From Rhizobium sp. BK399 (GTDB lineage Bacteria; Pseudomonadota; Alphaproteobacteria; Rhizobiales; Rhizobiaceae): 64,000 nt of DNA. Positions 6,101-36,807 of this stretch are shown here, piece by piece. The stretch lies in the NCBI RefSeq assembly GCF_014194695.1, contig NZ_JACIAH010000003.1, positions 62,001 through 126,000 on the forward strand. The letters run 5' to 3'. The notes under the pieces are model-generated. The model was not told where the DNA came from. It did not search any database and saw only the letters and a list, made by a program, of their open reading frames with translations. The position numbers and the translations under genes are program-made. Every line of letters begins with the position of its first letter. The first letter of the stretch is position 1.

Positions 6101-6133
6101 AAAAAGTCCCGTCCTTGTGGCGGGATTTTTTTC
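6101..6133 (+). terminator. Intrinsic terminator after ctrA
   Basis: An inverted repeat pairs AAAAAGTCCCG with CGGGATTTTTT around the loop TCCTTGTGG and ends in a run of seven T. It lies 24 bases after the ctrA stop. Confidence 0.85.
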
Positions 6134-6144
6134 GTTTCCGGCAT

Positions 6145-6165
6145 AAAAAAGCCGCCCAGGGCGGC
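6145..6165 (-). terminator. Intrinsic terminator of the leftward chpT/receiver unit
   Basis: On the minus strand GCCGCC-CTG-GGCGGC is followed by six T (AAAAAA at 6145-6150 on the plus strand). It lies 26 bases past the stop of the receiver gene. Confidence 0.75.
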
Positions 6166-6191
6166 CTTGATTGGTGAAAGGAGGTTCGCAA

Positions 6192-6554: not shown

Positions 6555-6666
6555 GGCTGCTCCTTGCCCCAGCTTCTGTCCCGGCTGGCGAATTACTAGC
6601 CAAGGATAAAAACATTAGGCTAAGGATTTATTACCTCGGGGTGCCGAATCGCCGTCGAGGCTTGTA

Positions 6667-10591: not shown

Positions 10592-10633
10592 ATGTGGCGT
10601 TCCGTTCTATAAATCATTCGGAGAAGAAGCGTC

Positions 10634-19274: not shown

Positions 19275-19564
19275 TTTCGCAACTCCGTTTGGGCGCCTCG
19301 TGGTCTCCCGGCGCACCGGCGACAGGTCATCCCGACTGATGGAACGACAATACCCTGTCCATGTTATAGCATCTCTTCCAGTGGTCCCAGCGGGAAGAAC
19401 GCCGGCTCGGACAAAACCACACCTCCCAACTTGAGCACCGCCGGCGACCACCGCAATGCGCGGCAAATGCCCGCCGACGCAATCTGGTCATGTGCGCGAA
19501 CGTCCCCGCCCGCCCAACATGAAATAGGATCATAGTCCCATTTACTGTTGTGGAGGTCTCAATA

Positions 19565-21418
19565 ATGTTTCTCGGTCTCGATATCAGTGCCGGCTGCCCC
19601 GCCCATCGCGACGGGACCAGGCCGCGCTCCATCGTCGCCTTCGGCGACAGTCTGACGGCAGGCGCGGGCGCGTCTTCGTCAGACCACTCCTATCCCGCTC
19701 TGGCAGCTTCGCTATTCAACCCACCTCGCACTGTCATTAATCGCGGGGTCGGCGGCCAGACCTCGACCCAGATCGCTTCCCGTCAGGGAGGCACGCCCCT
19801 GCTGCTCGCCGTCCAGGGTACTGAAACCAAGAACCTCTATCCCCGCAGCCGAGACTGGATGACCTCGTTTGATGCAGGCGTCATCAACGGACTCACTCAC
19901 GAATTGGTAGCGGCAGGGGTTGATGAAAACGGACTTCCCTATGGCGACGTTCGCGTTCACGGAATGGCAACCGGATCGTTCACGGATGTCGGTCGACAGA
20001 TATACAGCTCCATCGCCGCAAACCTGAAAGTCGAAGCTGGCAGCCGCTGGACTATCTCTGGCGAGGCTCAACTGGTTGGCGGCTCCACCAGCGGCGTGAA
20101 CGGTTTCAATCTCCTGCTCATTCAAGCTGACGAGGCCGGCGGCTACCTCAACGAAATCGCGTCGCCAGGTTTTCCACTCGATGGTGCGCGCAATTCCGTA
20201 TCGGAAAGCGGTGAAGCAACCCACGCCTTTATTCGCTCGACCTTCCTGCTGAATGTTGCCGTCGGCAGCACTATCGACATCACGCTTCGCATCTTTCCGG
20301 GCCAGTTCGAGGCCGGCCCGCTGCGAACCTCCCTGCAACTCACACCTGGCGACGGAACGATCAACCTCTACAATCCGACCTTCTCTACGACATCCCGCTT
20401 CGGCACCAGCGCGAACGGCTGGACCCCGCGCGTCCAGGATGGCCACACAACCCCGCTACGGGTGGAAAGCAGCAAACTACTGGTCAGCAACGACGACGCC
20501 GGAATCCTTCGCGGCTGCGAGATCGCCCTGGCGGCGGTGCCACAGGGCAAAACCATTCGCGTCGGCTTCGATCTCGACTTCATCGAGGGTGGCGGCCTTG
20601 TCCAGATCGGCGGCCTCAATGCACCCGGTGGCAGTTGGGCGGCGGAAACCGCCGAAGGAAATGCAACCTCGGTTATCAGCTACCGTGGCCACCACGAAGT
20701 GATCTTAACCAGTGGCAACAGCACTTTCGGTAACGAGTCGTGCGGTGCGATCGCGTTTGTCAGCAGCGACAGCTATGTCACCTGGTCGCTTGACAACATC
20801 TCCATCGAGTGGGGCGATAGCAGCCCGCAAATTCCCGTCACCTACAAATCCGCGGACATCTTCATCGATTCCGGCGCTCACCGCGGCAGCGCTTCCGGCA
20901 CGCTGGTCGGCATCAAAGGATCGATCTCCGCCGATGCCGCAGGCAATTGGAGCTTTACGCGAAGGTCCGCAGGCGACAGCGCCGGCGTGCCCTATTCCGC
21001 AACCTTCCTTTTGGACGACGCCATCGCGACACGAGGAGACGTCCAGTGGATCTGGGCCGGCCGCAACAACGCCAGCGCTCCAGCTACGGTTATGTCCGAT
21101 ATCGCAGCAATGGCAAATCGGGTAGCACGCGGGCGATATCTCGTTGGCTCGATCCTGCCTGCGGCAAGCGACACACCCGAGGCGATGCAGCAGATATCGG
21201 AGCTGAATGCGGCTCTCAAGACCGTCTACCAAAACCACTTTGTCGATCTTCAAGCTGCCCTTCAGTCCGCAGCCAACCAGACTTCTGGCGATCAGGAGGA
21301 CGTGGCGGCCGGCCTGGTGCCACGATCGCTGCGGGCTGATGCAATCCACCTCAATGATCTAGGCTATGCGGTCGTCGCCGCCGCCTGGGCTGGCGCTACG
21401 ATCGTCCAGGGCTGGTAA
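19565..21418 (+). CDS. SGNH/GDSL hydrolase with an inserted beta-rich region
   Basis: This is a 617-residue esterase/acyl-hydrolase-type protein. Block I (IVAFGDSLTAGAG, Ser29) and block II (NRGVGGQTST) are near the N-terminus. Block III-like WIWAGRNN is near 499 and block V DAIHLND (Asp592, His595) near the C-terminus. The roughly 350 residues between blocks II and III read as beta-sandwich, carbohydrate-binding-like domains (GSRWTISGEAQLVGG; PRVQDGHTTPLRVESSKLLV). No signal peptide is visible. GGAGG precedes the ATG at 19565. The gene converges on, and overlaps by 23 bases, the acetyltransferase ending the polysaccharide operon, so trimming acyl groups from that polymer is a reasonable but unproven role. 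Confidence 0.82.
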   Translation: MFLGLDISAGCPAHRDGTRPRSIVAFGDSLTAGAGASSSDHSYPALAASLFNPPRTVINRGVGGQTSTQIASRQGGTPLLLAVQGTETKNLYPRSRDWMTSFDAGVINGLTHELVAAGVDENGLPYGDVRVHGMATGSFTDVGRQIYSSIAANLKVEAGSRWTISGEAQLVGGSTSGVNGFNLLLIQADEAGGYLNEIASPGFPLDGARNSVSESGEATHAFIRSTFLLNVAVGSTIDITLRIFPGQFEAGPLRTSLQLTPGDGTINLYNPTFSTTSRFGTSANGWTPRVQDGHTTPLRVESSKLLVSNDDAGILRGCEIALAAVPQGKTIRVGFDLDFIEGGGLVQIGGLNAPGGSWAAETAEGNATSVISYRGHHEVILTSGNSTFGNESCGAIAFVSSDSYVTWSLDNISIEWGDSSPQIPVTYKSADIFIDSGAHRGSASGTLVGIKGSISADAAGNWSFTRRSAGDSAGVPYSATFLLDDAIATRGDVQWIWAGRNNASAPATVMSDIAAMANRVARGRYLVGSILPAASDTPEAMQQISELNAALKTVYQNHFVDLQAALQSAANQTSGDQEDVAAGLVPRSLRADAIHLNDLGYAVVAAAWAGATIVQGW

Positions 21419-21989
21419 ACAGCACGCGCTTGCGCAGGAAACGCGCCGGGTTGCCGGCAAAGATCGTCCAGGCCGGGATGTTGCTGAAGGCGACGCCACG
21501 CGCACCGAGGACAGAGCCCTCTTCTAAAATTACGCCGGGGCCGACAAAGGCCTCGGCCGCCACCCAGGCATTGGCCCCGATCGTGATCGGATGTGCCTCC
21601 AGCTGGAAATAGGGATCGTCCACTACATGACTACCGGCGCAAAGATGCGCGCCTTGTGAGATCACGGCATTCCGGCAGATGCGGATCGGCGCCATCGCAT
21701 AGCAAATGACACGCGGGCCAATCAGTGCGTTCTCTTCCATCACCAGGTTCGGTGGATACCAGATCCTTGCCGAACCATGAACGCGGGCGTTGGCCGCCAG
21801 TTGTGCGCCGAACATGCGGAGCAGCATCGCCCGCCATCGATGCAAGGGGGCCGGCGTCCAACCAGCGAGAAGCATCCACGCGACCGCCCACGCGGCCCGT
21901 AACATCCTGTGCTGCAGCGAAAAGCTTGGGCCGCCGGTGCGCGAGCCGCTTTTCCTTGCGTCGAGGATGCCCAAGGCATGCTGTTCCAT
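21396..21989 (-). CDS. WcaF-like hexapeptide-repeat acetyltransferase
   Basis: This 197-residue left-handed beta-helix acyltransferase resembles colanic-acid WcaF. A hydrophobic amphipathic start (MLRAAWAVAWMLLAGW) precedes hexapeptide turns through VHGSARIWYPPNLVMEENA and ITIGANAWVAAEAFVGPGVI, then NIPAWTIFAGNPARFLRKR. It is expected to O-acetylate a sugar of the exported polysaccharide from acetyl-CoA. ATGs at 21995 and 21989 are possible; the second is 8 bases from GGAGG, while the first overlaps the upstream polymerase stop (ATGA). It is the last gene of the leftward operon. Confidence 0.88.
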   Translation of the reverse strand: MEQHALGILDARKSGSRTGGPSFSLQHRMLRAAWAVAWMLLAGWTPAPLHRWRAMLLRMFGAQLAANARVHGSARIWYPPNLVMEENALIGPRVICYAMAPIRICRNAVISQGAHLCAGSHVVDDPYFQLEAHPITIGANAWVAAEAFVGPGVILEEGSVLGARGVAFSNIPAWTIFAGNPARFLRKRVLFTSPGRS

Positions 21990-21991
21990 TA

Positions 21992-23323
21992 TCATCGCCT
22001 CCAAGCTCGAACGGCGGCTAACTGTGCCGGTGGCTGGACGAACCGCCGGAGCGAGACCGAAAGCAGCTTCGCGACAAACAGTTGACAGACGAAAAGCGGA
22101 AGCACCGCACCCACCGGCCCACGCAGAAGAATGGGCAAGGACGCTGCGATGAAGAATTGGAGTACGCGAACCCCGAAGAACCTGTCCTGGTTGAACCGGA
22201 TCATCGCTCCCAGCAGAAATGCACATGCGAAGCCGCCAAGCACGACGCCCACAAACCCGAAATCCATGTAGAAATCGCAGCCGAGAAAGAGGGAGAGGTT
22301 TGGCGTCCCGTACATGCCGGCGGCAAAGAGATCATTGCCGATATCAAGCCCGCCGACGATCGGTTTACCCGGCCAGACGGCGCGGGGAACGAAGAACAGT
22401 ACGACAGCGGTCAGCTTTTCGCCCCACATGAGATCATGCGTCGACATGTAGCGGACGGAGTGGACAGCCATGTCAAACACATCGACGGAAGGGATGTCAA
22501 AGAAGTTCCCGACAACCGAGACCTGCGACAGATCCTGCAATCCCTCCAATCCTGAGCGTGTCGTTATATTGAGGATCGGAAACAGGATCGTCAGCGCCAC
22601 CAGGCCACAAAGGTAGAATTTCGCCGCCGATAGCTTGCCACCAGCGAGTGCCAGGAACACGGGTCCCCACACCGCCAGCAGCACGAAGCGTGGTGCATTG
22701 AACGGGTTTCTGGCGACCGCCAGCAAAACCAGAACGAGCAGCAGCATCGACACCGCGGTAAGCCTACGCGGCGATAAGCGACAGTATGCTGCCACCAGGC
22801 AAGCACTCGCAGATTGAACGGCCAGAAATAGCATGCTCGCGATGAAGGGCTGCGAGCCATCCTGCTCCAAGCGCGATGAAAGCAGCCTTTCGAAGCCACC
22901 TTCGGACATGGCGAACAGGATGAAGGCAACGACGTTGAGGAAGAGGATGAAAGGTATAGCAGGTCGGACATCGGTCGCCGCCGGCTGTTCATCGGATTGC
23001 ATCGACACGAAGAGGAATGGGAAGGCAAAGACAACGACGACCAGCATCGCCAGAGCGTACTCGGCCGGATCGTAGGCGTAGGCCGTTATCGCAGTCGCGC
23101 CACCGATCCGGTCCCCATGAATTCGCTGCAACGGCGAGATCACAAAATAGATAAACAGACAGAACCAGAAAATGTCGCCAATCTCGAAATCGCGCGATCG
23201 CAGGCGCCCCAAACCGACGATCACAATGGCGAACAGCGGCAAGCTCAGGCCGACCACGAAAAGACTGTCGGCGAAAGGCAAGTTGAGGAGGTAGAGTGCC
23301 AGCACCGTCCCGAGCCTGATCAT
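21992..23323 (-). CDS. Polysaccharide polymerase (Wzy-like)
   Basis: This 443-residue membrane protein has about eleven helices and a large external loop between about 290 and 360 (TRSGLEGLQDLSQVSV, MAVHSVRYMSTHDLMWGEK, LFFVPRAVWPGKP). WPGKP followed by a long hydrophilic loop is usual in O-antigen or oligosaccharide-repeat polymerases, which join lipid-linked repeat units in the periplasm. ATG 23323 overlaps the flippase stop (TGATG) and has AGGG 5 bases upstream; an ATG at 23338 is also in frame. The frame is open far upstream inside the flippase gene, but that part is not this protein. Confidence 0.82.
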   Translation of the reverse strand: MIRLGTVLALYLLNLPFADSLFVVGLSLPLFAIVIVGLGRLRSRDFEIGDIFWFCLFIYFVISPLQRIHGDRIGGATAITAYAYDPAEYALAMLVVVVFAFPFLFVSMQSDEQPAATDVRPAIPFILFLNVVAFILFAMSEGGFERLLSSRLEQDGSQPFIASMLFLAVQSASACLVAAYCRLSPRRLTAVSMLLLVLVLLAVARNPFNAPRFVLLAVWGPVFLALAGGKLSAAKFYLCGLVALTILFPILNITTRSGLEGLQDLSQVSVVGNFFDIPSVDVFDMAVHSVRYMSTHDLMWGEKLTAVVLFFVPRAVWPGKPIVGGLDIGNDLFAAGMYGTPNLSLFLGCDFYMDFGFVGVVLGGFACAFLLGAMIRFNQDRFFGVRVLQFFIAASLPILLRGPVGAVLPLFVCQLFVAKLLSVSLRRFVQPPAQLAAVRAWRR

Positions 23324-24621
23324 CACTTCCCTCGCCATGCCGGTAGACCACGACGAAAGAGCAGATACCAAAGGCCCAACGCGCCCGCGGCATGCGAGAC
23401 CACCTCGGCAACCGCAAGCCCAGCAAGACCAAGCCAGTAGCCGAGCGCGGCAGTTGCGACGAAACAGATCAGCATGGCGCCATTGGCCGACAAGGCGACC
23501 GCGCGGTAGTGCCCCAGTGCCTGTGCCGCCTGGGATAGCGTCGACACCAATGCACCGCTCAGTATCCCAAACGAGAAAAGACTGACAACACCGGCCGCTG
23601 CGGCGATCGCAGCATGTGTCGATCCGGCGATCAGCAAACCGGCTATCAAAAGGCCAGATGAACCAGATACGGAAATCCATGTGGCCAAGCGCTGAACGCC
23701 GAATGCTGTCCAAACCGGGCTGACGCTCGTGGCAATCCTGTGTACGAGCAGAGGAAAATGCGCTCGGCGGACAGATTCCAGGACCTGCGAGCCCGCTGCC
23801 GTAATCTGCCGACCGTAGAGAAAAATCGCCGTCGGTCCCTGGCCAAAAAGCAGTGAGCAGATAATGAGCTGGAATCGAAACGACAGCTGCCCCGGCAGTA
23901 GCGCAAGCAAGACCGACACTCCTTCGCGGACAAGGTCCGTGCAGCGTCGCCATGTCACCGATATCCTCCCAGGAGGGCGGCCGACATGGCAAAGGGTCAA
24001 CAACTGCATGGTGACGGCGATGCCGCATCCCATCGACAAGGCCGCCCCGAGAATCAGACCAGACTGGTTGGCCGAAAGACCGCTCGCAGGCAGCAGCGCT
24101 GCCCCAGAGCAGAGGTACGTCGCCATGCCGGTCACCCCGCTCAGTCCACTCAGCTTCAGTCCATCAAGAATGCCGCCGGCGTTGAAAGCCCAGAATATGA
24201 GGGCCGGAGTGGCCGCTGTGAGGTAGGCGCAGCTGAAGTCATCCCACGACCACAGCGCGTACGACAAACCAATCAATGCGACAGCAATGGCCACGCAAAG
24301 CCGCACCATGCTTCCGGACCAGAAGCAGTGTCGGATCTCCGCACCGTCACCCTTGACATCTGCTAAGGCAACTCTGCGGGCGACCGAGGTCATGCATCCA
24401 AAATCGACAATCATCAGCGCGAGAACAGCAAAGGAAAAACATGTCCCGAAGCGCGCCAGTAGCTCGAGTTCCCCCCGACTGACCAGCAGGGTCTGCGCGA
24501 GAAAGATCGATCCCTGCCCTATCCCGAAGCTCGCAATCAACAGCGCTGCGTTGCCGGTTCCCCGCCACGACAGGCCTCGCTCACCACGTACCTTTGCCTG
24601 GTGAGCACCGATCGCCGTCAT
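23323..24621 (-). CDS. Polysaccharide flippase (Wzx/MATE-like)
   Basis: This 432-residue integral membrane protein has about twelve helices and few charged residues within them (ALLIASFGIGQGSIFLAQTL, FSFAVLALMIVDFGCMTSVA near the N-terminus). The pattern fits the PST family, which flips undecaprenyl-linked repeats across the inner membrane. It overlaps the upstream epimerase stop by ATGA and the downstream polymerase start by TGATG, so the three are tightly coupled. Confidence 0.82.
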   Translation of the reverse strand: MTAIGAHQAKVRGERGLSWRGTGNAALLIASFGIGQGSIFLAQTLLVSRGELELLARFGTCFSFAVLALMIVDFGCMTSVARRVALADVKGDGAEIRHCFWSGSMVRLCVAIAVALIGLSYALWSWDDFSCAYLTAATPALIFWAFNAGGILDGLKLSGLSGVTGMATYLCSGAALLPASGLSANQSGLILGAALSMGCGIAVTMQLLTLCHVGRPPGRISVTWRRCTDLVREGVSVLLALLPGQLSFRFQLIICSLLFGQGPTAIFLYGRQITAAGSQVLESVRRAHFPLLVHRIATSVSPVWTAFGVQRLATWISVSGSSGLLIAGLLIAGSTHAAIAAAAGVVSLFSFGILSGALVSTLSQAAQALGHYRAVALSANGAMLICFVATAALGYWLGLAGLAVAEVVSHAAGALGLWYLLFRRGLPAWRGK

Positions 24622-25592
24622 GCGGCCACTCGGATCAACTGGCTCTCGATCCAGGCATAAGTTGCCTCCAAACCGGTAATGAGGCTTTGCGCTGGTCGCC
24701 AGCCCAGCTTCTCCTCGATCAAACGATTATCGGAGTTCCGCCCGCGGACACCAAGGGGACCGGGAATATGTCGCTTCTGAAGCCGCTTGCCGGCGATGGC
24801 ACAGACCATGTCAACGAGCTGGTTGATAGTCACCATCTCGTCCGACCCGATGTTGACCGGTCCCTCGAAACCGGAGCGCATCAGGCGTGTCGTTCCCTCC
24901 AGACATTCGTCTATGTAGAGGAAAGAGCGGGTCTGCAGGCCATCACCCCAGATCTCGATTTCATCGCCATGCGAGGCGATCGCAACCTTGCGGCAGATTG
25001 CAGCTGGCGCTTTTTCCTTGCCGCCTTGCCATGTACCGGAAGGTCCGAAGATGTTGTGGTATCGCGCAACGCGGTTCTTCATTCCATGGTTGCGGTTGTA
25101 GGCGAGAAAGAGGCGCTCGGAGATGAGTTTCTCCCACCCATATTCGCTGTCTGGCGCGGCGGGATAGGCCGATGATTCCGCGCAATTGGGATTGTCCGGA
25201 TCTTCCTGATTGTACGCAGGATAGATGCAGGCCGAAGAGGAGTAGAAAATTCGCTCGACATTCTGACGGCGGCAGATTTCGGCGACATTGAGGTTGATGG
25301 TTGCAGAATTGTGGATGATGTCGGCGTCGTGCTCGCCGGTGAAGATATACCCAGCCCCGCCCATGTCAGCGGCCATCTGGTAGACCTCGTCGAAGCGACC
25401 GTCGATGACCCTCTCGCAAACATCCTGCCGGCGAAGGTCACCCGCAATGAATTCGTCGGCTACCGTCGCTTCATATTCCGGATACTTGAGATCGACGCCG
25501 CGAACCCAGAACCCCTCATGCTTCAACCGTCGGACAAGGTGGCTGCCGATGAAGCCTCCGGCACCACAGACAAGAGCAGTTTTCCCCAGCAC
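24618..25592 (-). CDS. GDP-mannose 3,5-epimerase homologue
   Basis: This 324-residue extended SDR has the NAD site GAGGFIGSHL (10-19). It matches plant GDP-mannose 3,5-epimerase across its length: AADMGGAGYI, SSSACIYP (Cys122), YGWEK (Tyr151, Lys155), GTWQGGKEKAPAAICRK (Lys194), WGDGLQTRSFLYIDECLEG, PVNIGSDEMV and GPLGVRGRNSDN. In the plant enzyme these positions are the catalytic Cys, Tyr and Lys residues that make GDP-L-galactose and GDP-L-gulose from GDP-mannose. The gene overlaps the flippase gene, so an L-hexose in the exported polymer is the natural inference; GDP-mannose genes lie 6 kb away. Other epimerases lack the SSACIYP/EKAPAA pair. Confidence 0.88.
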   Translation of the reverse strand: MLGKTALVCGAGGFIGSHLVRRLKHEGFWVRGVDLKYPEYEATVADEFIAGDLRRQDVCERVIDGRFDEVYQMAADMGGAGYIFTGEHDADIIHNSATINLNVAEICRRQNVERIFYSSSACIYPAYNQEDPDNPNCAESSAYPAAPDSEYGWEKLISERLFLAYNRNHGMKNRVARYHNIFGPSGTWQGGKEKAPAAICRKVAIASHGDEIEIWGDGLQTRSFLYIDECLEGTTRLMRSGFEGPVNIGSDEMVTINQLVDMVCAIAGKRLQKRHIPGPLGVRGRNSDNRLIEEKLGWRPAQSLITGLEATYAWIESQLIRVAA

Positions 25593-25608
25593 CTTACGCC
25601 CCCCAGCG

Positions 25609-26805
25609 CTATTTTGCCTGCAACTCCATCAAGAACAGCCGTTCAAGAATTCCCTCAAATCGATCCGCAATCCGATCAATCCCGAAACTTCTCTCGGCAT
25701 ACGCGCGACCATTTGCGCCAAGCTTCGCCCGGACCTCCGCACGCTCAGCCAACTGACGAAAATTGGTCACGAAATCTGCGTGATTGCCGGGTTCCGAAAC
25801 GAGCCCGGCTTGCTCCCGCTCGAGGATTCTCCGAGCGAGATTTCCTGCGGGGATGGCGGCGAGTACTGGCTTCCCGGAGCAGAGGTAAGTGAGTACCTTC
25901 GACGGCACCGAAAAGATCCCAGCATCGGCTTCGATCATGGCGATCAGTATGTCGGCATCAGCCAACACCCCCGGCAGATCCGAGAATCGAACCCACGGTC
26001 GGACCACGAGGTTGGTTATGCCTTCGGTCTTTGCACGATGCGCGAGCTCGTCTGCCGCGCGGCCCTCGGAGAGGACGTCAATCGTCACGGTCAGCGCTTT
26101 CGCCGCAGAAAGAAGAACCTCGGGATTGTGCTTGTAGCCCAACGTTCCCGCGTAAACGGCGTGTATCGTTCCATTTCCCGGCTTCGCTCGCCCTTGCGCG
26201 CTCACATCATTCAGCGGCGCCCAATTTTCAATGACGGAAATATCGTGAGTTGAGACGCCGTTGTTGCAAAGAAACGGGACAAAGTCGTCCGTGATCGCGA
26301 CGATATGGTCGCTTCCCCTCAAGAGGTCGTATTCGAGCTTGCGATAGCGCTTGGCGACAAGGCTGCCGAGCACCGGAAGCTTACGGGGCAAGATGCGGCC
26401 GATCGCTTCGCTATAGATATCCTGAAGCCAGAAGACGAATTTTGCTCCGATCGCCCGTGTCGCTTTGTAGATCACGGCTTGGGTATCCAGCGGGGCGTTG
26501 GAGGAAATAACGACCTCCGGCCGAAATTGCTGGATTTGAACTGCAACCAACCGTCCGGTTTCGATCTCTTGGGACCTTCGCCTGAGGAAACTGTTCTTGT
26601 GAAAGACTCCGTCCAGACGAACACCTGCGATCTGCAAGCTCGTGGGATCATCCGAACGGTTCGTCAGGTCGCCCTTAGGGGTTTGAAAGCTCTCTGAATG
26701 GACGTGGAAAACCTGATGGCCGCGTTCTGCAAGACAGCGCGACAGCTCGACCTGAAAAGGGTGACCCGAGTAATCATGAATAAGTATACGCCGTCGGCAA
26801 TTCAT
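25609..26805 (-). CDS. Glycosyltransferase family 4 (WbuB-like)
   Basis: This 398-residue GT-B enzyme has an N-terminal acceptor domain (ILIHDYSGHPFQVELSRCLA) and a C-terminal nucleotide-sugar domain with YAGTLGYKHNPEVLLSAAKAL, LADADILIAMIEADAGIFSV and PSKVLTYLCSGKPVLAAIPAG. The E-x7-E-like pair of GT4 is here DAGIFSVPSKVLTY. It resembles WbuB/FcbD-type transferases. ATG 26805 has GAGAAA 6 bases upstream; the frame's earlier start has none. It is the only glycosyltransferase in this operon, so other transferases and a priming enzyme must act in trans. Confidence 0.87.
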   Translation of the reverse strand: MNCRRRILIHDYSGHPFQVELSRCLAERGHQVFHVHSESFQTPKGDLTNRSDDPTSLQIAGVRLDGVFHKNSFLRRRSQEIETGRLVAVQIQQFRPEVVISSNAPLDTQAVIYKATRAIGAKFVFWLQDIYSEAIGRILPRKLPVLGSLVAKRYRKLEYDLLRGSDHIVAITDDFVPFLCNNGVSTHDISVIENWAPLNDVSAQGRAKPGNGTIHAVYAGTLGYKHNPEVLLSAAKALTVTIDVLSEGRAADELAHRAKTEGITNLVVRPWVRFSDLPGVLADADILIAMIEADAGIFSVPSKVLTYLCSGKPVLAAIPAGNLARRILEREQAGLVSEPGNHADFVTNFRQLAERAEVRAKLGANGRAYAERSFGIDRIADRFEGILERLFLMELQAK

Positions 26806-26940
26806 GTCTTTTCTCAGATGAAATGAAGAAAAAGATGCCGCAAATTGACCGCCCCAGCAGAAAGCCGCCGCCACTGCTGTATTCCAACCACCCCCGCGCA
26901 GCCTGCTGCTCGGCTGAAGCCTACGCCACGCACGCAGTTC

Positions 26941-28776
26941 TTAGGCACTTGCAAGAACATAATGCCCTCCAACCGCGAACCACTTGCGTTGATCCCGTCT
27001 GTTCAGCACCGCGATGATTGGCGCTGCATCTCTCGTATGGCCCCTTAGGGCGGTGACTGCCTTTCGCGCGGCCTTTTGAGGCGTAGTCGCCCACTGCACG
27101 ACGAAGAGCACAGCGTCGCTCAGCCGCGCGAGATAGAGGGCATCAACAGCCGCCTCCATTGGAGGCGTGTCGACGATAATGTAGTCGAAGTGCTGGCGTG
27201 CTCGCTCCAGCAGTTTCCTGACCCGCGGCCCCATCAGAAGCTCGTCCGTCGGAAATTCGGCGGGCCGTGCGCCGAGGATCACGGAGAGGTTGGTAGCGTG
27301 ATCTGTCACCACCATGTTCGCGAGACCGGGATCAGGCTCGCCACGCAAAAGATTGACGAATGCCGATGTCGGCTCGCGATCGACATGCCGATGGATGCTG
27401 GGCTTGCGAAGGTCGCAATCGACGAGCAGTGTCCGCTTTCCGGCCAAAGCATAGGTACGTGCCAGGGAGGTCGCGAGCGTTGACCTTCCCTCTCCAGAGA
27501 GCGCCGAAGCAACCATAACGACGACGCCTGTTTCGGTCTCAGGTTCGAGGAGCCCGGCATTTCGCAATAACGTCTGATCCAGCGACACGCGGATGCGTCG
27601 CAGTGATTCAGAGAAGAGCGAGAGCGGGGCTGACATGATTGTGTCGGAAAGGCCTCGCCCGTGCGGCTTTTCAACTTCGCTGCCTGCCTGATCCGGCGTT
27701 ACCGAGGCGAGCGGAATGTTCAGTACTGCGCTTACCTGATCCTCACTTGTAAAGCCGCCTATAAAGAATTCCCGGAGCAAGGCGCCTCCAATGCCCAGAC
27801 CCAGCGCCAGGATGGCCATCACTGCGAGCACAAGACCTTTCCTCGGATACGATGGCTCGATCGGGGCGAGCGCTGCGGATACTATGCGACTGTCGGCGAC
27901 CTGGAGACTCGCCTGCGCCTCGAAATCCTGCAGTCGCGTCAAAAGGTTCTGATATTGGGTCCTTGCGACCTGCGCCGATTGCTGCAGCGCATAGTATTGG
28001 GTGAGGATTTCCGAGGATACACCGCGCCCGTAGCTTGGACCGCGCGCATCGGAGGCGGTTTCGCCAAATTGCGCGTCCGCCAGCCGCAACTGCTGCAGCG
28101 ATCCGGCGGCTTGGAGATTGCCATGGGAGGTGACGAACAGATCGAGATTTCGCTCATTCTGCGCAAGGACGTCTCGAGCGGCCGTGACCTGATGCTCGAG
28201 AATCTTGCCGGCCGAGACTGTATTCGCGACTTTTGCCTCGACCTGTTTCTTGATGTAGACAGCCGTCACAAGATTTGCGAGCCGCGCCGCCTTCTCGGCA
28301 TCCTTCGACGTCACACCGACGGTGATAAGATAGGTCAGACCTTCGCGGCGAACCCGGACCGCGTACCTGAAAGAGTTAAGAACGGCCCCAATCGCCTTGT
28401 CGCCCGACGACGCCGTCCGCTTGAGGCCAACGACGGCCAGTAGCGGTTCCATGAAACCATTGGATGTAAACTCCGGGTCGGAGAGGAGATTGCCGTCCCT
28501 TATGACGTCGAGGAGCACTGCATCGGATCGAACGATGCGAACCTCGCCCTCTACTCGGGAGTTGTCGGTCAGGCCGCTTGTGGCGGCAGTATTGGGGTCG
28601 AGAAGATTCTTTGAACTCGTATCGACAAGAACCAGCGACTGAGCGGTATACCGCGGTGAGAGAGAGAAGAGGACAGCAACACTCAGCAGGAAGATCGGCA
28701 GAGCCACCGCCAATATTGTACGGACTTGCCGGTGGGCTAGTCCAATCAGCATTCGAGGGTCTGCGACATCGTTCAT
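26941..28776 (-). CDS. Wzz/BY-kinase-like polysaccharide co-polymerase with altered P-loop
   Basis: This 611-residue inner-membrane protein is of the Wzc/ExoP type. TM1 is at about 20-40, followed by a Wzz domain with periplasmic coiled coil (about 170-290), TM2 at about 310-330 after a proline-rich PIEPSYPRKG, and a cytoplasmic ATPase domain. Walker A reads ALSGEGRST, with Arg431 where BY-kinases have the ATP-binding Lys. Walker A' (LLVDCDLRKP) and Walker B (IIVDTPP) are normal. The usual C-terminal Tyr cluster is reduced to one Tyr in GGHYVLASA. It likely sets chain length and export with the flippase and polymerase; tyrosine-kinase activity is doubtful. ATG 28776 is preferred over a TTG at 28794. 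Confidence 0.88.
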   Translation of the reverse strand: MNDVADPRMLIGLAHRQVRTILAVALPIFLLSVAVLFSLSPRYTAQSLVLVDTSSKNLLDPNTAATSGLTDNSRVEGEVRIVRSDAVLLDVIRDGNLLSDPEFTSNGFMEPLLAVVGLKRTASSGDKAIGAVLNSFRYAVRVRREGLTYLITVGVTSKDAEKAARLANLVTAVYIKKQVEAKVANTVSAGKILEHQVTAARDVLAQNERNLDLFVTSHGNLQAAGSLQQLRLADAQFGETASDARGPSYGRGVSSEILTQYYALQQSAQVARTQYQNLLTRLQDFEAQASLQVADSRIVSAALAPIEPSYPRKGLVLAVMAILALGLGIGGALLREFFIGGFTSEDQVSAVLNIPLASVTPDQAGSEVEKPHGRGLSDTIMSAPLSLFSESLRRIRVSLDQTLLRNAGLLEPETETGVVVMVASALSGEGRSTLATSLARTYALAGKRTLLVDCDLRKPSIHRHVDREPTSAFVNLLRGEPDPGLANMVVTDHATNLSVILGARPAEFPTDELLMGPRVRKLLERARQHFDYIIVDTPPMEAAVDALYLARLSDAVLFVVQWATTPQKAARKAVTALRGHTRDAAPIIAVLNRRDQRKWFAVGGHYVLASA

Positions 28777-28945
28777 GCGAATGCAAACCCTCAACCGATA
28801 CAGCCGAATACTCGCTCAGGTTTTATCGCGCAAACAATTACCACAGCAGGGACGCTTCACAACCACAGATAATCCTATTGGATTATCACCCCCTGCATTT
28901 GAATGAAGCCTGCCGGATGGTCGAGGGCCATCCGACAGGAGTTGC

Positions 28946-29554
28946 TTAGCGATATGGCTCGAAGAACCTCTGAATGGCATCGATTTCGTTCTGCCTGATA
29001 TCGTGCCCACCGGCATGCCATTCCGTCGTGGTGGAAGCATTCTGCGCCTCAAAATACTCCGCCAAGGCCCTCGTCACGGGCGCAGGACTGATCGGGTCGC
29101 GCTCACCGGCAGTGATCAGTACCTTTCGTCCGCCGAGCGCTGGATTTGCCTTCGGTTGAAACGGGATCAGCGGGTGCATCAGAACCGAAGCATTGAACAA
29201 TCCCTTTTCGATCAGCACGTTGGCAAGGATATTTGCGCCGTTCGAGAAGCCAAGCCCGAGGACATCGGTCGCCTCATGTTCTTTCGCAAGCGTTGCGACA
29301 AAGGACACCATCTTTTCCGTTGCTCGAGCAAGATCCGCCATATCGTAGACGCCCTCGCCGGTACGCTTGAAAAAGCGTGCTGCGCCGAACTCGGAAACAT
29401 CGCCGCGCGGCGATACGATCGTCGCTTCCGGCAACAAGCGTCGCCCAAAATCAAAAAACTGGTTCTCGTCGCCGCCCGTTCCGTGCAGTACGACAAGAAT
29501 GGGCTTTCCGGGTGCACCGGCCTGGAGCCGGTGCACATAGCTGTTATCGGTCAT
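28946..29554 (-). CDS. mhqD: MhqD-like alpha/beta hydrolase (carboxylesterase type)
   Basis: This 202-residue single-domain serine hydrolase has HGTGGDENQF (oxyanion region, 24-33), the nucleophile elbow GFSNGAN near 105, GERDPISP with the catalytic Asp near 152, and GGHDI with His near 184. It resembles the phospholipase/carboxylesterase family and Bacillus MhqD. It lies 11 bases downstream of an mhqO-like dioxygenase gene, the same pairing as in the Bacillus mhq regulon for quinone and catechol stress, which supports that role. GGGGA lies before the ATG. Confidence 0.85.
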   Translation of the reverse strand: MTDNSYVHRLQAGAPGKPILVVLHGTGGDENQFFDFGRRLLPEATIVSPRGDVSEFGAARFFKRTGEGVYDMADLARATEKMVSFVATLAKEHEATDVLGLGFSNGANILANVLIEKGLFNASVLMHPLIPFQPKANPALGGRKVLITAGERDPISPAPVTRALAEYFEAQNASTTTEWHAGGHDIRQNEIDAIQRFFEPYR

Positions 29555-29565
29555 CGTGTGTCCCC

Positions 29566-30498
29566 TTAGGCTTCCAACGGCTGCAGGTGCTGCTCGATAA
29601 GAGCGCGCATGTGCTGATGTTGCTGCGGCAGTTTCAGTGCTTCACCGAGATGCGCCGTGTCCTCGTCACGGTTGAAGCCGGGTTCGTTGGTCGCAATCTC
29701 AAACAAGATGCCACCTGGGGTGCGGAAGTAGATCGCCCAGAAGTAATCGCGGTCGATGACAGGCGTAACCTGATATCCCGTATCCATCAGCGCTTTGCGC
29801 ACTTCGAGCTGCTTCTCGCGGTTCTCCACGGCGAAAGCGACATGGTGCACCGAACCTGCGCCTGGCAGAGCTCGCGAGAGGTTTGGCATGGTTTCCAGGT
29901 CGACGAGATGGGCACCGTTTCCGCCGGGAATGGTCAGGCGCTTCACGCCATCGCGCTCTTCCTGGACTTCGTAGCCCATGAATCTAAGCAGCTCGGACGT
30001 GGCGCCGTCATCGCGCAGTCGCATGGCGACCGAGTGAAACCCGCGGATCGCGTGGTCCTCGCTGATGCCGCCGTGCGTCCAGGGCAGACGATCGTCTTCC
30101 TTGACTTCAACCAGCGCAAAGCCGTCGCCATCGGGACCGCCAAAGTTCAGGCGCTTTTCGCCGAATGCTTCCTCGGTCTTCAGGCCGGTGACATTCAATT
30201 TGTTCAAACGATCGCTCCAGAAACCGAGCGAACCCTGCGGGACAGAGAAAACGGTGGTCCCGACCTCACCGGTTCCCGGACGTCCTTGCGGCATCTTCGG
30301 GAATGGGAAGTACGTCATGATCGTACCTGGCGCGCCGGTCTCGTCACCATAGTAGAGGTGATAGACGTCAGGTGCGTCGAAGTTCACGGTCTTCTTGACG
30401 CGACGCAGACCGAGCGCATTGGTGAAAAACTGGTTGTTGGTGCGGGCATCCTCCGCCATCGATGTGACGTGGTGCAGACCCTTGATTTGATCGAGCAT
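29566..30498 (-). CDS. mhqO: MhqO-like ring-cleaving dioxygenase (VOC family)
   Basis: This is a 310-residue protein with two tandem glyoxalase/VOC domains. Metal ligands are expected at His9 (GLHHVTSMA), His in the SVHHVAFAV block of the second half, and Glu in GGILFEIATNEPG. The family opens hydroquinone- or catechol-type rings and in Bacillus relieves methylhydroquinone stress. It is the first gene of the pair with the hydrolase. A 24-bp dyad lies about 110 bases upstream. No regulator is adjacent. Confidence 0.88.
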   Translation of the reverse strand: MLDQIKGLHHVTSMAEDARTNNQFFTNALGLRRVKKTVNFDAPDVYHLYYGDETGAPGTIMTYFPFPKMPQGRPGTGEVGTTVFSVPQGSLGFWSDRLNKLNVTGLKTEEAFGEKRLNFGGPDGDGFALVEVKEDDRLPWTHGGISEDHAIRGFHSVAMRLRDDGATSELLRFMGYEVQEERDGVKRLTIPGGNGAHLVDLETMPNLSRALPGAGSVHHVAFAVENREKQLEVRKALMDTGYQVTPVIDRDYFWAIYFRTPGGILFEIATNEPGFNRDEDTAHLGEALKLPQQHQHMRALIEQHLQPLEA

Positions 30499-30605
30499 TT
30501 GAGACCCCTTTCTTGCCCGCCTCGCGGGCTTCGGATGGGATATAGATGATCGCTAAGGGTCGATCGGAATAGCCCCGACGACCAGAACGCATTGTCTCCT
30601 TTTAG

Positions 30606-30629
30606 TGAACGACAAATAAAGATCGTTCA
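30606..30629. promoter_or_regulatory. Inverted repeat TGAACGA-N10-TCGTTCA upstream of mhqO
   Basis: Perfect 7-bp arms at 30606-30612 and 30623-30629 flank an AT-rich 10-base spacer, in the 139-bp gap between mhqO's start and ung's stop. There is no T run, so it is not an intrinsic terminator. Size and place suit a MarR- or TetR-type operator controlling mhqOD. Confidence 0.5.
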
Positions 30630-30637
30630 GAAAGAGC

Positions 30638-31339
30638 CTAAAGATCAGTTGGGTTCGTGGGCAACTGCCAGTCGATCGGCGCCCGGCCGCGCGCCTGCAA
30701 GAAGGCATTGGCCTTGGAAAAATGGCCAGAGCCAAAGAAGCCGCTGTGTGCGGAAAGTGGCGACGGATGCGGCGCCTTCAACACCAGATGACGCGACGTA
30801 TCCACGAAGGCGGCCTTCCTTTGCGCATAGGAGCCCCAAAGCATGAAGACCACCGCGTCGCATTCGTCGTTGACCTTGCGAATGACAGCGTCGGTGAAGC
30901 GCTCCCACCCCTTGCCCTGGTGCGATGCAGCCTGAGCCTCCTCGACCGTCAGCACGCTGTTCAGCAACAGCACGCCCTGCCGCGCCCAATGTTCCAGAAA
31001 TCCATGCCGCGCCGGCTGAACTCCCAGGTCGCTTTGCATTTCCTTGTAAATATTGACGAGTGAGGGCGGAATTCGCACGCCCGGTCGGACGCTGAAGCAA
31101 AGGCCATGCGCTTGCCCGAGTCCATGATAAGGGTCCTGCCCGAGGATCACGACCTTGACGTCCGCCAGTGGCGTGAGGTCGAGAGCGCGGAAGTACTCAG
31201 ACCCCTTCGGAAAGATCCTTTTTCCTCCCTGCTTCTGGGCGAGGAGGAACGCCTTTAGCTGCTGCATGTAGAGACTGGAGAATTCGCCAGCGAGTGCGTT
31301 CTTCCAGCTCTCCTCCAGCGCGATCGATTGTTCATCCAT
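30638..31339 (-). CDS. ung: Uracil-DNA glycosylase
   Basis: This family 1 enzyme removes uracil from DNA. The catalytic water-activating loop GQDPYHG is at 67-73 (Asp69), followed by AHGLCFSV, and the C-terminal [21 protein letters not shown] holds the catalytic His and the DNA-intercalating loop. The length of 233 residues is normal. AGGA precedes the ATG. Confidence 0.97.
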
Positions 31340-31491
31340 TGACAGTCCTCATCCGCTTCTGCGCGCTTTCAACTTGCCTCGAGGCGGGAATTGGCGGACA
31401 TTTTATTGTTGGCCGTCGGCAATATTTACAAATGCGGGGTAGATTGCGTTCAAATCGCAGGTGAATTCAAGCGCGTCGGGAACCTTTCAAG

Positions 31492-32916
31492 ATGAAATTC
31501 GGAACAAGTGGACTTCGCGGCCTGTCTGTCGACCTCAAGGGGCGCGCTTCGGCACTTTATGCCACCGCGTTCGGACGCTACCTGCTCGACAGCGGACTGG
31601 CGCGCGCGGGCGACGCCATCCTGATCGGCCGGGACTACCGGGATTCGAGTCCAGAAATCACGGCCAACTGCACTGATGCCCTTGTCAGCCTCGGTTTCGA
31701 TGTCCAGGACTGCGGCACGCCGCCGACGCCAGCCCTTGCGCTTTATGGTCTCCAGCAAAAGGCCGCCTGTCTGATGGTGACCGGTTCGCACATACCTGCT
31801 GATCGTAACGGCATCAAGTTCTATCGGCCGGACGGCGAGATCGACAAAGCAGACGAGGCGGCAATCACCGCTTTGGCAACAGAACTCGATCGTACCGGCT
31901 TTGCGTTTGCGCCCCGCGGCACACGTCCGCACGAGGTTTCGTCCGAATGCCTGACGGCCTTCCGCGAACGGAATGCCAATATTCTTCCCGCGGGCGCGCT
32001 TGCTGGCCTCAAGGTCGGCATCTACCAGCATAGCACGGTCGCCCGCGACCTGCTTGTGGATCTCTTGAAGCATTACGGCGCGACAGTTGTCCCGTTTGGC
32101 CGGTCAGAGACATTCAATCCTGTCGACACCGAAGCCGTTTCCGAAGAAACGATTGCCAAACTGACGGATGCCGCCAGACAACATGACCTCGATGCGATCG
32201 TCTCCGCCGATGGGGATGGCGATCGTCCGCTGGTGACAGATGAGACGGGCACGCCGCTGCGCGGTGATCTTCTTGGATTGATCGCCACAAACTTCCTCGG
32301 TGCGACCGCAGTGGTTACACCGGTTACGTCGAATTCCGGGATCGAATCTGCGGGGCGCTTTAGCGTCATTCGCACCCGCGTCGGCTCCCCCTTTGTGATA
32401 TCGGGCATGCAAGAGGCAATCACAGCGGGCCAGAACCATGTCGCAGGCTTCGAGGCGAATGGCGGCGTGCTGACGGCGAGCGATTCCGAAGTCAACGGCC
32501 ACACGCTGCGCGCCCTGCCGACGCGCGATTGCTTCGTGCCCATCCTGGCGACGCTGTTTCTTGCAGCATCCAGACGGCAGCCGCTTTCGGTCATCGTTGC
32601 TTCCTACGGCCTGCCGTTTACCATGGCTGACCGTCTCGAAGACTTTCCGGTTGAGACAAGTGCCCGTCTGATGGCGCATCTCCGTTCCGGGTCTTCCAAC
32701 CTCGCGGCGTTTCTGGAGCCGATCGGCAAAGTTGGCAGCGTCAGCGATATCGACGGGCTGCGTGTCACGCTGAAGGACCGACGAATCATTCATTTCCGTC
32801 CCTCCGGCAATGCTCCGGAAATGCGCTGCTACGTTGAGGCAGAAGGCGAAGCCGCCGCCGCAGCGTTGCTCGGTGCCGGACTGCAACGCATCCGCTGGTG
32901 GGCCAAGACGAACTGA
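31492..32916 (+). CDS. manB: Phosphomannomutase (ManB/NoeK-type)
   Basis: This 474-residue alpha-D-phosphohexomutase has all four family sites: start KFGTSGLRG, phosphoserine loop TGSHIPADRNGIK (Ser99), metal loop SADGDGDRP at about 239-247, and phosphate-binding RPSGNAPEMRCYVEAE at the C-terminus. It interconverts mannose-6-phosphate and mannose-1-phosphate. manC starts 34 bases downstream, which supports phosphomannomutase over phosphoglucomutase. Rhizobial noeK has this size and partner. Confidence 0.9.
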   Translation: MKFGTSGLRGLSVDLKGRASALYATAFGRYLLDSGLARAGDAILIGRDYRDSSPEITANCTDALVSLGFDVQDCGTPPTPALALYGLQQKAACLMVTGSHIPADRNGIKFYRPDGEIDKADEAAITALATELDRTGFAFAPRGTRPHEVSSECLTAFRERNANILPAGALAGLKVGIYQHSTVARDLLVDLLKHYGATVVPFGRSETFNPVDTEAVSEETIAKLTDAARQHDLDAIVSADGDGDRPLVTDETGTPLRGDLLGLIATNFLGATAVVTPVTSNSGIESAGRFSVIRTRVGSPFVISGMQEAITAGQNHVAGFEANGGVLTASDSEVNGHTLRALPTRDCFVPILATLFLAASRRQPLSVIVASYGLPFTMADRLEDFPVETSARLMAHLRSGSSNLAAFLEPIGKVGSVSDIDGLRVTLKDRRIIHFRPSGNAPEMRCYVEAEGEAAAAALLGAGLQRIRWWAKTN

Positions 32917-32950
32917 TCGACCAAGCAAGAGATAGTCAAGGATATTAGAG

Positions 32951-34378
32951 ATGACGAAGAAGATCGTTCCCGTGATCATGGCAGGCGGCAAAGGTACTCG
33001 GCTTTGGCCATTGTCACGCGCTGCAGCACCGAAGCAGTTCATCCGTTTCGTTGGCGACAAGACACTTTTTCAGGAAACGCTGCGGCGCGTGTCCGATCCC
33101 GCGCTCTACGAAGCGCCCGTGATTCTTACCAACGAAGAATTCCGCTTTCTCGTCGCCGAGCAAGCGCGTGAGCTGGACATCGACCTCGCCGCCATCTTGC
33201 TCGAACCGGTTGCCCGCAATACCGCCGCCGCCGTAGCCGCCGCTGCGACGCTGGTACGCGACCGTTTTGACGAGGACACCATTATGCACGTGCTCGGCTC
33301 CGACTACGAAATCGTTGCCGACGACACCTACTTTGGCTGTGTCAACATTGCTGCCGCAACGGCGGCCGAGGGAAAGCTGGCAACTTTCGGCATACAGCCG
33401 ACCGAGCCTGCAACGGGCTACGGCTACATCGAGGGTGGGGAGCAGCTTCCTTCGGGTGCTCGGGTGGTGGCACGATTCATCGAAAAGCCGCCACTCGCCA
33501 ATGCAGAAGAAATGCTCGCCGCTGGCGGTTTCTATTGGAATTCCGGCATGTTCATGTTTTCGGTTTCGCGTCTGCTCGCCGAAATGCGCACCTATGCTGC
33601 ACCGGTATTGAAGGCAGCAGCCGACTCGCTCGCAAAAAGCGTCAGGGATCTCGACTTCATCCGTCTCGACAAGGCAGCGTTCTCCGCGGCCCCGAACATC
33701 TCGATCGACTACGCGATCATGGAGAAGACGAGCAACGCCGCCGTCGTCCCCTCGCCGTTCAAGTGGTCCGACCTCGGCAGCTGGGATTCCGTCTGGAAGA
33801 GCGGTAGCCGCGATGAATATGGCAATGTGGCAGCCGGCAATACGACGGTCGTCAACACCAAGAACTCGCTCATCATGACACATGGTGTACACCTAGCCGT
33901 CCAGGGCATGGACGATATCGCTGTCATCGCCAGCGAGGACGCCGTGTATGTCGGCCGACTGCAGGACAGCCAGGACGTCGGCAACCTCGTGAAGATGCTC
34001 GCCTCCGCCCCCACGACATCGCAGCTGACCGAGACCCATCCCACCTCCTACCGGCCTTGGGGCGGCTATACCTCGGTGCTGAACGGCGACCGCTTCCAGG
34101 TGAAACGCATCTTCGTCACGCCGGGCAAGAAACTGTCACTACAGAAGCACCACCACCGCTCCGAGCATTGGATCGTCGTCAAGGGCACGGCCGAGGTGAC
34201 CATCGGCGAGAACGTGCAGATGCTGAGAGAGAACGAATCCGTCTACATCCCGCTCGGCGAAATCCATCGCCTGGCCAACCCGGGCAAGATCATGCTCGAG
34301 CTGATCGAAGTGCAGACCGGATCCTATCTCGGCGAAGACGATATCATCCGTATCGTGGACGAGTTCGGCCGCAGCTGA
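32951..34378 (+). CDS. manC: Mannose-1-phosphate guanylyltransferase / mannose-6-phosphate isomerase
   Basis: This 475-residue bifunctional type II enzyme has a nucleotidyltransferase domain (1-290) beginning VIMAGGKGTRLWPLSR (8-23), with FIEKPP and GFYWNSGMFMF. A C-terminal cupin isomerase domain has QKHHHRSEHWIVVKGTAEVT and PLGEIHRLANPGK. It makes GDP-mannose from mannose-1-phosphate and can also isomerise fructose-6-phosphate to mannose-6-phosphate. AAGGA lies 8 bases before the ATG. With the upstream mutase it forms a complete GDP-mannose route, the substrate for the epimerase at 24.6-25.6 kb. Rhizobial relatives are named noeJ. Confidence 0.94.
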   Translation: MTKKIVPVIMAGGKGTRLWPLSRAAAPKQFIRFVGDKTLFQETLRRVSDPALYEAPVILTNEEFRFLVAEQARELDIDLAAILLEPVARNTAAAVAAAATLVRDRFDEDTIMHVLGSDYEIVADDTYFGCVNIAAATAAEGKLATFGIQPTEPATGYGYIEGGEQLPSGARVVARFIEKPPLANAEEMLAAGGFYWNSGMFMFSVSRLLAEMRTYAAPVLKAAADSLAKSVRDLDFIRLDKAAFSAAPNISIDYAIMEKTSNAAVVPSPFKWSDLGSWDSVWKSGSRDEYGNVAAGNTTVVNTKNSLIMTHGVHLAVQGMDDIAVIASEDAVYVGRLQDSQDVGNLVKMLASAPTTSQLTETHPTSYRPWGGYTSVLNGDRFQVKRIFVTPGKKLSLQKHHHRSEHWIVVKGTAEVTIGENVQMLRENESVYIPLGEIHRLANPGKIMLELIEVQTGSYLGEDDIIRIVDEFGRS

Positions 34379-35790: not shown

Positions 35791-36807
35791 ATGCGTTATT
35801 TCATCACCGGCACCGCAGGCTTCATCGGTTTTCATCTCGCCCGCCGCCTGCTGCAGGAGGGCAACGAAGTCACCGGCTTCGATGGCATGACGCACTACTA
35901 CAACATCAAGCTGAAGCACATGCGCAATGCCGCGCTGGCACAGTTTCCTGCCTTCCGCCCGGTGACGGCGATGCTGGAAGACCGCAATGCCCTGGAAGGC
36001 GCCATCGCGGACGCAAGGCCGGATGTGCTGGTCCACCTCGCAGCACAGGCCGGTGTGCGCTACAGCCTGGAAAATCCGCGCGCTTACCTGACATCAAATC
36101 TGGAAGGCTCCTGGAACATCCTGGAGATTGCCAAGGATGTCGGTGTCAGCCATCTCATGCTGGCATCGACGTCGTCCATCTATGGCGCCAATCCGACCGT
36201 TCCATTTCGCGAGACAGACCGTGCGGACGAACCGCTGACCTTCTACGCGGCGACGAAGAAATCGATGGAACTGATGGCGCACAGCTACGCCCATCTCCAC
36301 AAGGTCCCGACGACAGCCTTCCGCTTCTTCACTGTCTACGGCCCTTGGGGACGTCCCGATATGGCCCTCTTCAAGTTCGTCAAGAGCATGATGGAAGACC
36401 AGCCGATCGAGATCTACGGCGAAGGCAAGATGAGCCGCGACTTCACCTATATCGATGACCTCGTGGAGGCGATCCTCCGGCTTTCTTCCGTCGTTCCCTC
36501 GGAAGCGAATCGCGTGACCGACGAACGGGTGGAGACCCTCTCACATCAGGCGCCGTTCCGCGTCGTCAACATCGGTGGCGGTCAGCCCGAAAACCTGATG
36601 ACCTTTGTCGAGACCGTCGAAAGGGCACTCGGCCAGCCGGCCAAGCGCAAGATGCTGCCGATGCAGAAGGGTGACGTGCCGCGCACCTTTGCCAGCCCCG
36701 ACCTGTTGATGGCGCTGACCGGCTACAAGCCGGAGACAACGCTGGATATCGGCGTCAAGGCATTCGTCGACTGGTATCTGGAAGCGCGCGGCGAACTCGA
36801 ACCGTAG
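35791..36807 (+). CDS. lpsL: UDP-glucuronate 4-epimerase (LpsL)
   Basis: This 338-residue extended SDR converts UDP-glucuronate to UDP-galacturonate. It has the NAD site [16 protein letters not shown], substrate and active-site elements [24 protein letters not shown], the YAATKK Tyr/Lys pair and [15 protein letters not shown], which are typical of LpsL/GAE. It is directly abutted to rkpK with no gap, so translation is probably coupled. Confidence 0.94.

Follow-up and report, generated by a model that had tools for sequence, protein, structure and literature searches.

A bacterial GDP-mannose 3,5-epimerase in a predicted Wzx/Wzy-dependent surface-polysaccharide operon of Rhizobium sp. BK399

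Introduction

The first bacterial GDP-mannose 3,5-epimerase (GME) to be characterised was GM35E of Methylacidiphilum fumariolicum (PMC6678494, 2019), and in plants GMEs feed ascorbate and the cell wall (PMC8787198). Here we describe a gene for a protein of this family in Rhizobium sp. BK399, located in a stretch of 64,000 nucleotides (contig NZ_JACIAH010000003.1, positions 62,001 to 126,000 of the forward strand) that is called the window throughout. Compared by description, as given in text and legends of PMC6678494, GM35E is of the same family and shares the Cys/Lys/Arg and YxxxK set, whereas its hypothesised role is in the lipopolysaccharide of a thermoacidophilic methanotroph and the window GME sits in a predicted Wzx/Wzy-type Rhizobium operon. 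The plant enzymes of Arabidopsis (2C5A etc.) and Myrciaria dubia (8SG0) share with the window protein the fold and eight active-site residues, but differ from it in the pathways that they feed and in falling outside its bacterial clade.

At the level of the locus, the closest described system is that for colanic acid (wca) in E. coli, whose manC, mutase, GDP-L-sugar short-chain dehydrogenase/reductase (SDR), GT4 glycosyltransferase (WcaI), WcaF, Wzx, Wzy and Wzc have known or predicted counterparts here. Colanic acid, however, uses GDP-L-fucose (6-deoxy-L-galactose), made by Gmd and Fcl, and the window locus has GME instead; the former employs several glycosyltransferases, whereas the window operon has one that is recognised, with the initiating transferase outside the operon. 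The annotation of E. coli K-12 names WcaI a fucosyltransferase; the product name of WcaE implies an O-acetyl-L-fucose on undecaprenyl-diphosphate-linked glucose (Glc-PP-Und).

Rhizobial exopolysaccharides, according to a 2017 review (PMC5748678), are built of D-Glc, D-Gal, D-Man, L-Rha, D-GlcA and D-GalA, and neither "L-galactose" nor "gulose" begins a word in its available text, in line with the earlier remark that such a sugar is uncommon in these polymers. The exopolysaccharide of R. favelukesii is reported to have Glc and Gal at 7:1 (PMC7902896). A 2006 review (PMC1403797) gave no occurrence of L-galactose or gulose, but none of mannose or L-rhamnose either, and is uninformative. Titles and abstract starts among the literature matches listed, where subscription papers are thinly covered, contained no rhizobial GME and no L-galactose-containing rhizobial polysaccharide.

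Results and discussion

Sequence, active site and fold of the epimerase

The gene in question is the following:

24618..25592, minus strand: GME gene, 324 aa, GTG start (PDB phmmer search, active-site mapping, tree, predicted fold)

We read its product as a bacterial GME that would serve a Wzx/Wzy-dependent surface-polysaccharide operon of Rhizobium, and give this reading, from the sequence evidence, a probability of about 0.8. Searches of the PDB with phmmer returned the Arabidopsis GMEs 2c59, 2c54, 2c5a and 2c5e as closest matches (E 8.7e-102 to 6e-101), followed by 8sg0 from Myrciaria dubia (E 3.4e-97), the next family being GDP-L-fucose synthase at E 1.1e-25. Identity to an Arabidopsis GME fragment was 52%. 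A first-pass annotation of this DNA had matched the catalytic blocks of the plant enzyme at Cys122, Tyr151, Lys155 and Lys194, and all four map to Arabidopsis counterparts (Cys145, Tyr174, Lys178 and Lys217); Ser120, Asn180, Arg222 and Arg285 likewise correspond to Ser143, Asn203, Arg243 and Arg306, which makes eight of the eight published active-site residues (PMC8787198). The extended-SDR signature was found at G10, G13, G16, S120, Y151 and K155, and the catalytic Cys and Lys pair with the Cys-acidifying Arg at C122, K194 and R285.

Residues C122, Y151, K155, N180, K194, R222 and R285 were invariant in an alignment of 67 GMEs (the window protein, 64 bacterial and 2 plant sequences), and position 120 was Ser in 66 rows and Thr in one. 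The bacterial rows consisted of 47 of the 51 sequences of one genome set, with the window itself (L006), a row with a run of X (L053) and two incomplete rows (L064 and L075) left out, plus 17 of the best 80 in the named genome collection. At the positions of C122, K194 and R285 the alignment has C, H and K in E. coli Fcl and E, F and L in Gmd. Four further aligned rows, at about 34% identity, are different SDRs from relatives, and because three of them share the Arg at the R285 position, this residue alone is not diagnostic of GME, whereas the Cys and Lys together are. An AlphaFold2 model of the protein (pLDDT 80.3, with a weak stretch at 123-148) was submitted to Foldseek, and its 14 best matches were all GMEs.

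In a quick tree of 74 rows, the window GME fell among 40 bacterial rows that form one clade (SH-aLRT 99); the Rhizobium rows, 12 in number, clustered together (support 99), two other bacterial groups stood apart, and both plant GMEs lay outside the clade of the window protein. The GMEs were split from the Fcl, Gmd and GalE-like rows with support 88, the outgroup branches being flagged as long and the root of the GME group infirm for that reason. The phylogeny with plant GME and Gmd proposed earlier as a check thus grouped the protein with the GMEs, whereas the label "plant-type" was not supported as it stood, since the clade is pan-bacterial and excludes the plant sequences. The label therefore describes an activity and no special kinship, and the spread of GMEs over many bacterial phyla leaves nothing special in the plant link. 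Sequence comparison, active-site residues, tree and predicted fold all identify the window protein as a GME, with its catalysis predicted.

Anatomy of the operon

Around the GME gene lie the following features:

26941..28794, minus strand: Wzc-like polysaccharide co-polymerase / BY-kinase (Wzz, GNVR and AAA_31 domains; TIGR01005 193.5 bits, cut-off 411.7)
25609..26874, minus strand: GT4 glycosyltransferase, candidate L-sugar transferase (Pfam GT4/GT1 domains)
23323..24621, minus strand: Wzx-like MOP-superfamily flippase, 432 aa (predicted fold; junction with GME)
21992..~23326, minus strand: Wzy-like polymerase, a multi-pass membrane protein (position and hydropathy)
21396..21995, minus strand: WcaF-like hexapeptide O-acetyltransferase (Hexapep; PRK10502 154.2 bits, cut-off 192; ATGA junction)
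19550..21418, plus strand: SGNH/GDSL esterase, 622 aa, convergent (PF13472; synteny)

The minus-strand order is thus wzc, GT4, GME, wzx, wzy and wcaF-like, and the convergent SGNH esterase gene ends the locus. The location of GME inside a polysaccharide operon, as annotated earlier, agrees with this predicted Wzx/Wzy-type gene set, recognised by domains, synteny and predicted MOP fold. The Wzx-like protein matched no Pfam family; its AlphaFold2 model (pLDDT 80.6) resembles MATE, MurJ and WzxE of the MOP superfamily. The overlap of the GME and flippase genes, also annotated earlier, is an ATGA at 24618-24621; a second ATGA overlap joins wzy and wcaF, and wzx and wzy touch too, so that translation is probably coupled. 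The WcaF-like protein is 42% identical to E. coli WcaF and falls below both curated cut-offs, including that of TIGR04008 (138.6 versus 326.3 bits). Its listed open reading frame (276 aa, 21396-22226) begins about 77 codons too early, the start probably lying near 21995 because of the ATGA junction with wzy. One segment of the Wzy-like protein, about 110 residues long, shows no hydropathy peak, and a Pfam Wzy match in one ortholog was non-significant (E 4.4). In the esterase, Ser34, Asn506/507, Asp597 and His600 were invariant in four Rhizobium sequences. Promoter-like sites (4, against 2.5 in shuffles, sd 1.4) and terminator-like sites (11, against 7.6, sd 2.6) were at about chance level.

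Proposed pathway

The operon is predicted to yield a polymer with an L-galactose-type sugar. ManC would make GDP-mannose, which GME would oxidise at C4, epimerise at C5 and C3 with Cys122 and Lys194, and reduce at C4. The main product would be GDP-L-galactose, and GDP-L-gulose and GDP-D-altrose might arise beside it, as they do with characterised GMEs. The first lipid-linked sugar, probably glucose, would come from a WcaJ-type transferase encoded elsewhere in the genome, and the adjacent GT4 may put the GME-derived L-sugar onto it in the manner of colanic acid. The WcaF-like enzyme would then O-acetylate the product, Wzx would flip it, Wzy would polymerise it and Wzc would control its length. 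Pfam and NCBIfam recognise the GT4 as the sole transferase of the operon, for which the simplest assumption would be a repeat unit of two sugars.

A role in vitamin C synthesis was also considered, and one ALO-domain protein is encoded elsewhere in the genome; the polysaccharide role is favoured because of the operon context. If the prediction is right, a rhizobial surface polymer would contain an L-hexose, a type of sugar outside the monosaccharide list of PMC5748678, in a bacterium whose relatives live with plants having L-galactose in their own cell walls.

Distribution of the GME locus

Among 149 other genomes of relatives, 89 of them of the same genus, GME was detected in 14: eleven congeners and three members of the same order, the latter with 64, 70 and 78% identity. 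The eleven congeneric proteins are 78-91% identical to the window GME, and among the matches listed the next ones after the GMEs had at most 35%. All eleven have the same locus, with wzc, GT4, GME, wzx, wzy, wcaF and SGNH kept in every one (wzc is split over two frames in L040) between constant flanks, purA/GNAT and mhqD/glyoxalase/UDG/PMM; the 91% match is on contig 24 of R. cauense HU25. Ten GME-less congeners were searched by UDG and nine compared, G029 lying at a contig start, and the GME operon was absent from the ~19 kb read from each of the nine. In G001, a near relative (purA 98%), the whole wzc-to-SGNH block is absent at a junction without Ns, mhqD and greA being 0.3 kb apart. Other sequence separates mhqD and GNAT in G081 (3.6 kb) and G016 (1.3 kb), which both retain mutase and manC (in two pieces in G016). 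In G001 manC and most of the mutase appear missing too, but a run of 100 Ns lies exactly at that site, and the argument that manC had been lost together with this operon was dropped.

On a wider scale, 26 of 384 other class genomes and 12 of 397 from the phylum encode a GME (E <=1e-50), as do four plasmids among 72,556 records (E <=1e-60). At least 544 stretches in the named genome collection encode GME relatives at a loose tblastn limit; the best 80 of these, mostly metagenome-assembled genomes, are 65-91% identical to the window GME and span Proteobacteria, Bacteroidetes, Acidobacteria, Chloroflexi, Nitrospirae, Ignavibacteria and others. Judged by sequence, the family is widespread in bacteria, and the window GME adds a member to a known kind of enzyme.

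Recurrent association of GT4 with GME

Relatives of the window GT4 (E <=1e-30) occurred in 20 of the 384 class genomes and were enriched among those with GME (9/26 versus 11/358 without), with a Fisher p of 7e-7 that ignores shared ancestry and takes two 385-genome samples as identical. In seven of the nine other class genomes with both, the GT4 lay within ~150 bp of GME, and it lay away from GME in G177 and G215. Of the best 80 loci, 12 had a GT4 relative (>=90% coverage) within 320 bp of GME, nine of them outside Rhizobium: besides three Rhizobium these were two Bradyrhizobium, members of Sphingomonadales, Pseudomonadales and Desulfobacteraceae, Limimaricola, Acidisoma (on the opposite strand), a gammaproteobacterium and Terracidiphilus. 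Genes for an initiating phosphoglycosyl transferase (PGT) and manC join the pair contiguously on one strand in L096 (GT4-GME-PGT-manC) and L230 (PGT-GT4-GME-manC); PGT, GT4 and GME are close together in L043, L232 and L233, and in L232 manC is present as well, encoded on the opposite strand. The recurrence of GT4 beside GME in distant bacteria is the new observation of this work.

A GT4 set of 45 rows, 31 GME-adjacent and 14 unlinked, was assembled after dropping partial matches and one R. cauense duplicate (L086); the rows were partly chosen by GME, so that the adjacent share is no unbiased rate. Two of the 14 unlinked stretches (L218 and L223) are short. In the alphaproteobacterial loci L216-L222 and L229, GT4 relatives adjoin HldE-like and in some cases GmhA-like heptose genes, neighbours which suggest that donors vary within this GT4 family. 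A more distant Fcl-like gene accompanies GT4-GME in L163, and L087 and L107 are possibly loci using both GDP-L-fucose and GDP-L-galactose.

GDP-mannose supply

Two genes whose products would act before GME lie on the opposite strand:

31492..32916, plus strand: phosphohexomutase, phosphomannomutase by context (PGM_PMM domains I-IV)
32951..34378, plus strand: manC, mannose-1-P guanylyltransferase / mannose-6-P isomerase (TIGR01479 650.6 bits, cut-off 372.95)

The earlier assignment of phosphomannomutase and manC here stood in full for manC and at superfamily level for the mutase, whose NCBIfam matches were all under cut-off, an archaeal-type GlmM being the best; the gene is certain to the PGM/PMM superfamily, and takes the name phosphomannomutase from the adjoining manC. 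Since both genes are on the opposite strand, and three genes without evident polysaccharide role (28946-31339) lie between them and wzc, they form a neighbouring unit outside the GME operon. A second manC, 90% identical, is found in the same genome (C12:136346-137770), ~9 kb from another Bac_transf gene. No GDP-mannose 4,6-dehydratase (Gmd) over cut-off was found in the genome, which has seven weak SDR matches below it. Two PGTs exceed the WcaJ cut-off, one narrowly (412.2 versus 410.75). The WcaJ-type PGT on C1 is generic, with relatives in every one of the 53 other Rhizobium genomes searched, and the idea of an initiating transferase dedicated to the GME operon was rejected.

Downstream of manC, a UDP-glucose dehydrogenase-like gene abuts an NDP-sugar epimerase gene (34474-36807, plus strand); both also occur in G001, where the GME operon is absent, and the pair therefore probably serves general sugar-nucleotide supply. 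A PAS-GGDEF-EAL protein gene (36821-38602, minus strand) adjoins these sugar-nucleotide genes, with a possible link to c-di-GMP.

Alternative explanations

Several observations weigh against the proposed role. Wzy is assigned by position and hydropathy, and the operon contains no initiating transferase, the one in the window (62889-63569) being part of another cluster. The GT4 is below the WcaI-family cut-offs (PRK10307, 92.4 bits versus 276; TIGR04007, 25.1 versus 800.45) and, over 234 aligned residues, is 22.6% identical to WcaI of E. coli. Of the 53 other Rhizobium genomes that were searched, all but G001 (52) have a manC homologue (E <=1e-100), and 45 of the 53 are without this GME; manC is therefore general, and the substrate supply dedicated to GME that the first-pass annotation had suggested is not upheld, the second manC copy speaking in the same sense. 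Regarding the donor, HldE-like heptose kinase/adenylyltransferase genes, some with GmhA, stand beside the GT4 in 8 of the 14 unlinked loci, and another of these (L228) has gmd and fcl ~5 kb away. Fcl-like genes accompany the GT4-GME pair itself in L087 (full length, 46%, 5764-6666) and, after the GT4, in L107 (partial, 53% over 121 residues, 10282-10641), so that GDP-L-fucose could be the donor in these two. We rejected the idea of a WcaI fucosyltransferase switched to L-galactose, by which gmd/fcl would be expected beside the unlinked GT4 relatives: in the stretches read, gmd/fcl are near only one and HldE near eight of the 14. The GT4-GME link is kept, with the donor claim lowered. The GT4 may then add another sugar such as heptose or L-fucose, the L-sugar being added by a transferase elsewhere, which we consider rather doubtful: in L036, the locus of R. 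cauense, neither HldE nor GmhA gave a match, and Fcl and Gmd gave none at >=35% identity; the window operon offers no other recognised transferase; and the window GT4 falls in a clade of 25 rows, partly chosen by GME, of which 24 are GME-adjacent. That the GT4 adds the GME-derived L-sugar to the lipid-linked sugar, by analogy with colanic acid, stands nearer to even odds for donor and acceptor.

The nature of the sugar is a separate matter. In the cell the enzyme might make GDP-L-gulose, alone or mixed with GDP-D-altrose, so that L-gulose or D-altrose would stand in the polymer instead of L-galactose; GME products are indistinguishable from sequence here, and BlmG, the L-gulose enzyme of bleomycin, is reported to be 42% identical to Arabidopsis GME (PMC6678494). 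Yet GDP-L-galactose is described as the main GME product (PMC8787198), and we hold the gulose or altrose outcome unlikely. Far less probable still is a related SDR, either GDP-L-fucose synthase or UDP-sugar 4-epimerase, in spite of NCBIfam, which ranks Fcl (108.9 bits) and GalE (76.1) first for the window protein, both far under cut-off, with no GME model among the 21 families listed. GMEs differ from GDP-fucose synthase (GMER) in having Lys as base and Arg to acidify the Cys, against His and Lys (PMC8787198), and the window protein has the GME pair; the split in the tree, with the caution on long branches given above, and the fold matches argue the same way.

Returning to the GME reading, we tentatively suggest, at less than even odds, that PGT, GT4, GME and ManC form a recurrent module in which L-galactose or L-gulose would be the second sugar of surface polysaccharides, at the place of L-fucose in colanic acid; the GME-linked GT4 branch might then comprise L-galactosyl or L-gulosyl transferases, and the Rhizobium subgroup might make a minimal O-acetylated L-sugar polymer. 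Fucosyltransferases are described as promiscuous for GDP-L-galactose in section 12 of PMC8787198, which also names L-galactosyl/L-gulosyl transferases as a search target. The compact locus makes the GME-GT4 pair directly testable and a possible source of such enzymes.

Other features of the window

Genes for an acyltransferase, a Wzy_C protein, a Poly_export protein and a Bac_transf protein stand in a row at 59214-63569 (minus strand), an order that we take to be exoZ-exoQ-exoF-exoY. With these genes a succinoglycan-type exo cluster starts, at a distance of ~34 kb from the GME operon. At 38787-40663 (minus strand), a D-erythronate dehydrogenase gene (NF043036 over cut-off) adjoins a 3-hydroxyisobutyrate dehydrogenase-like gene, and the two are probably a sugar-acid catabolic unit.

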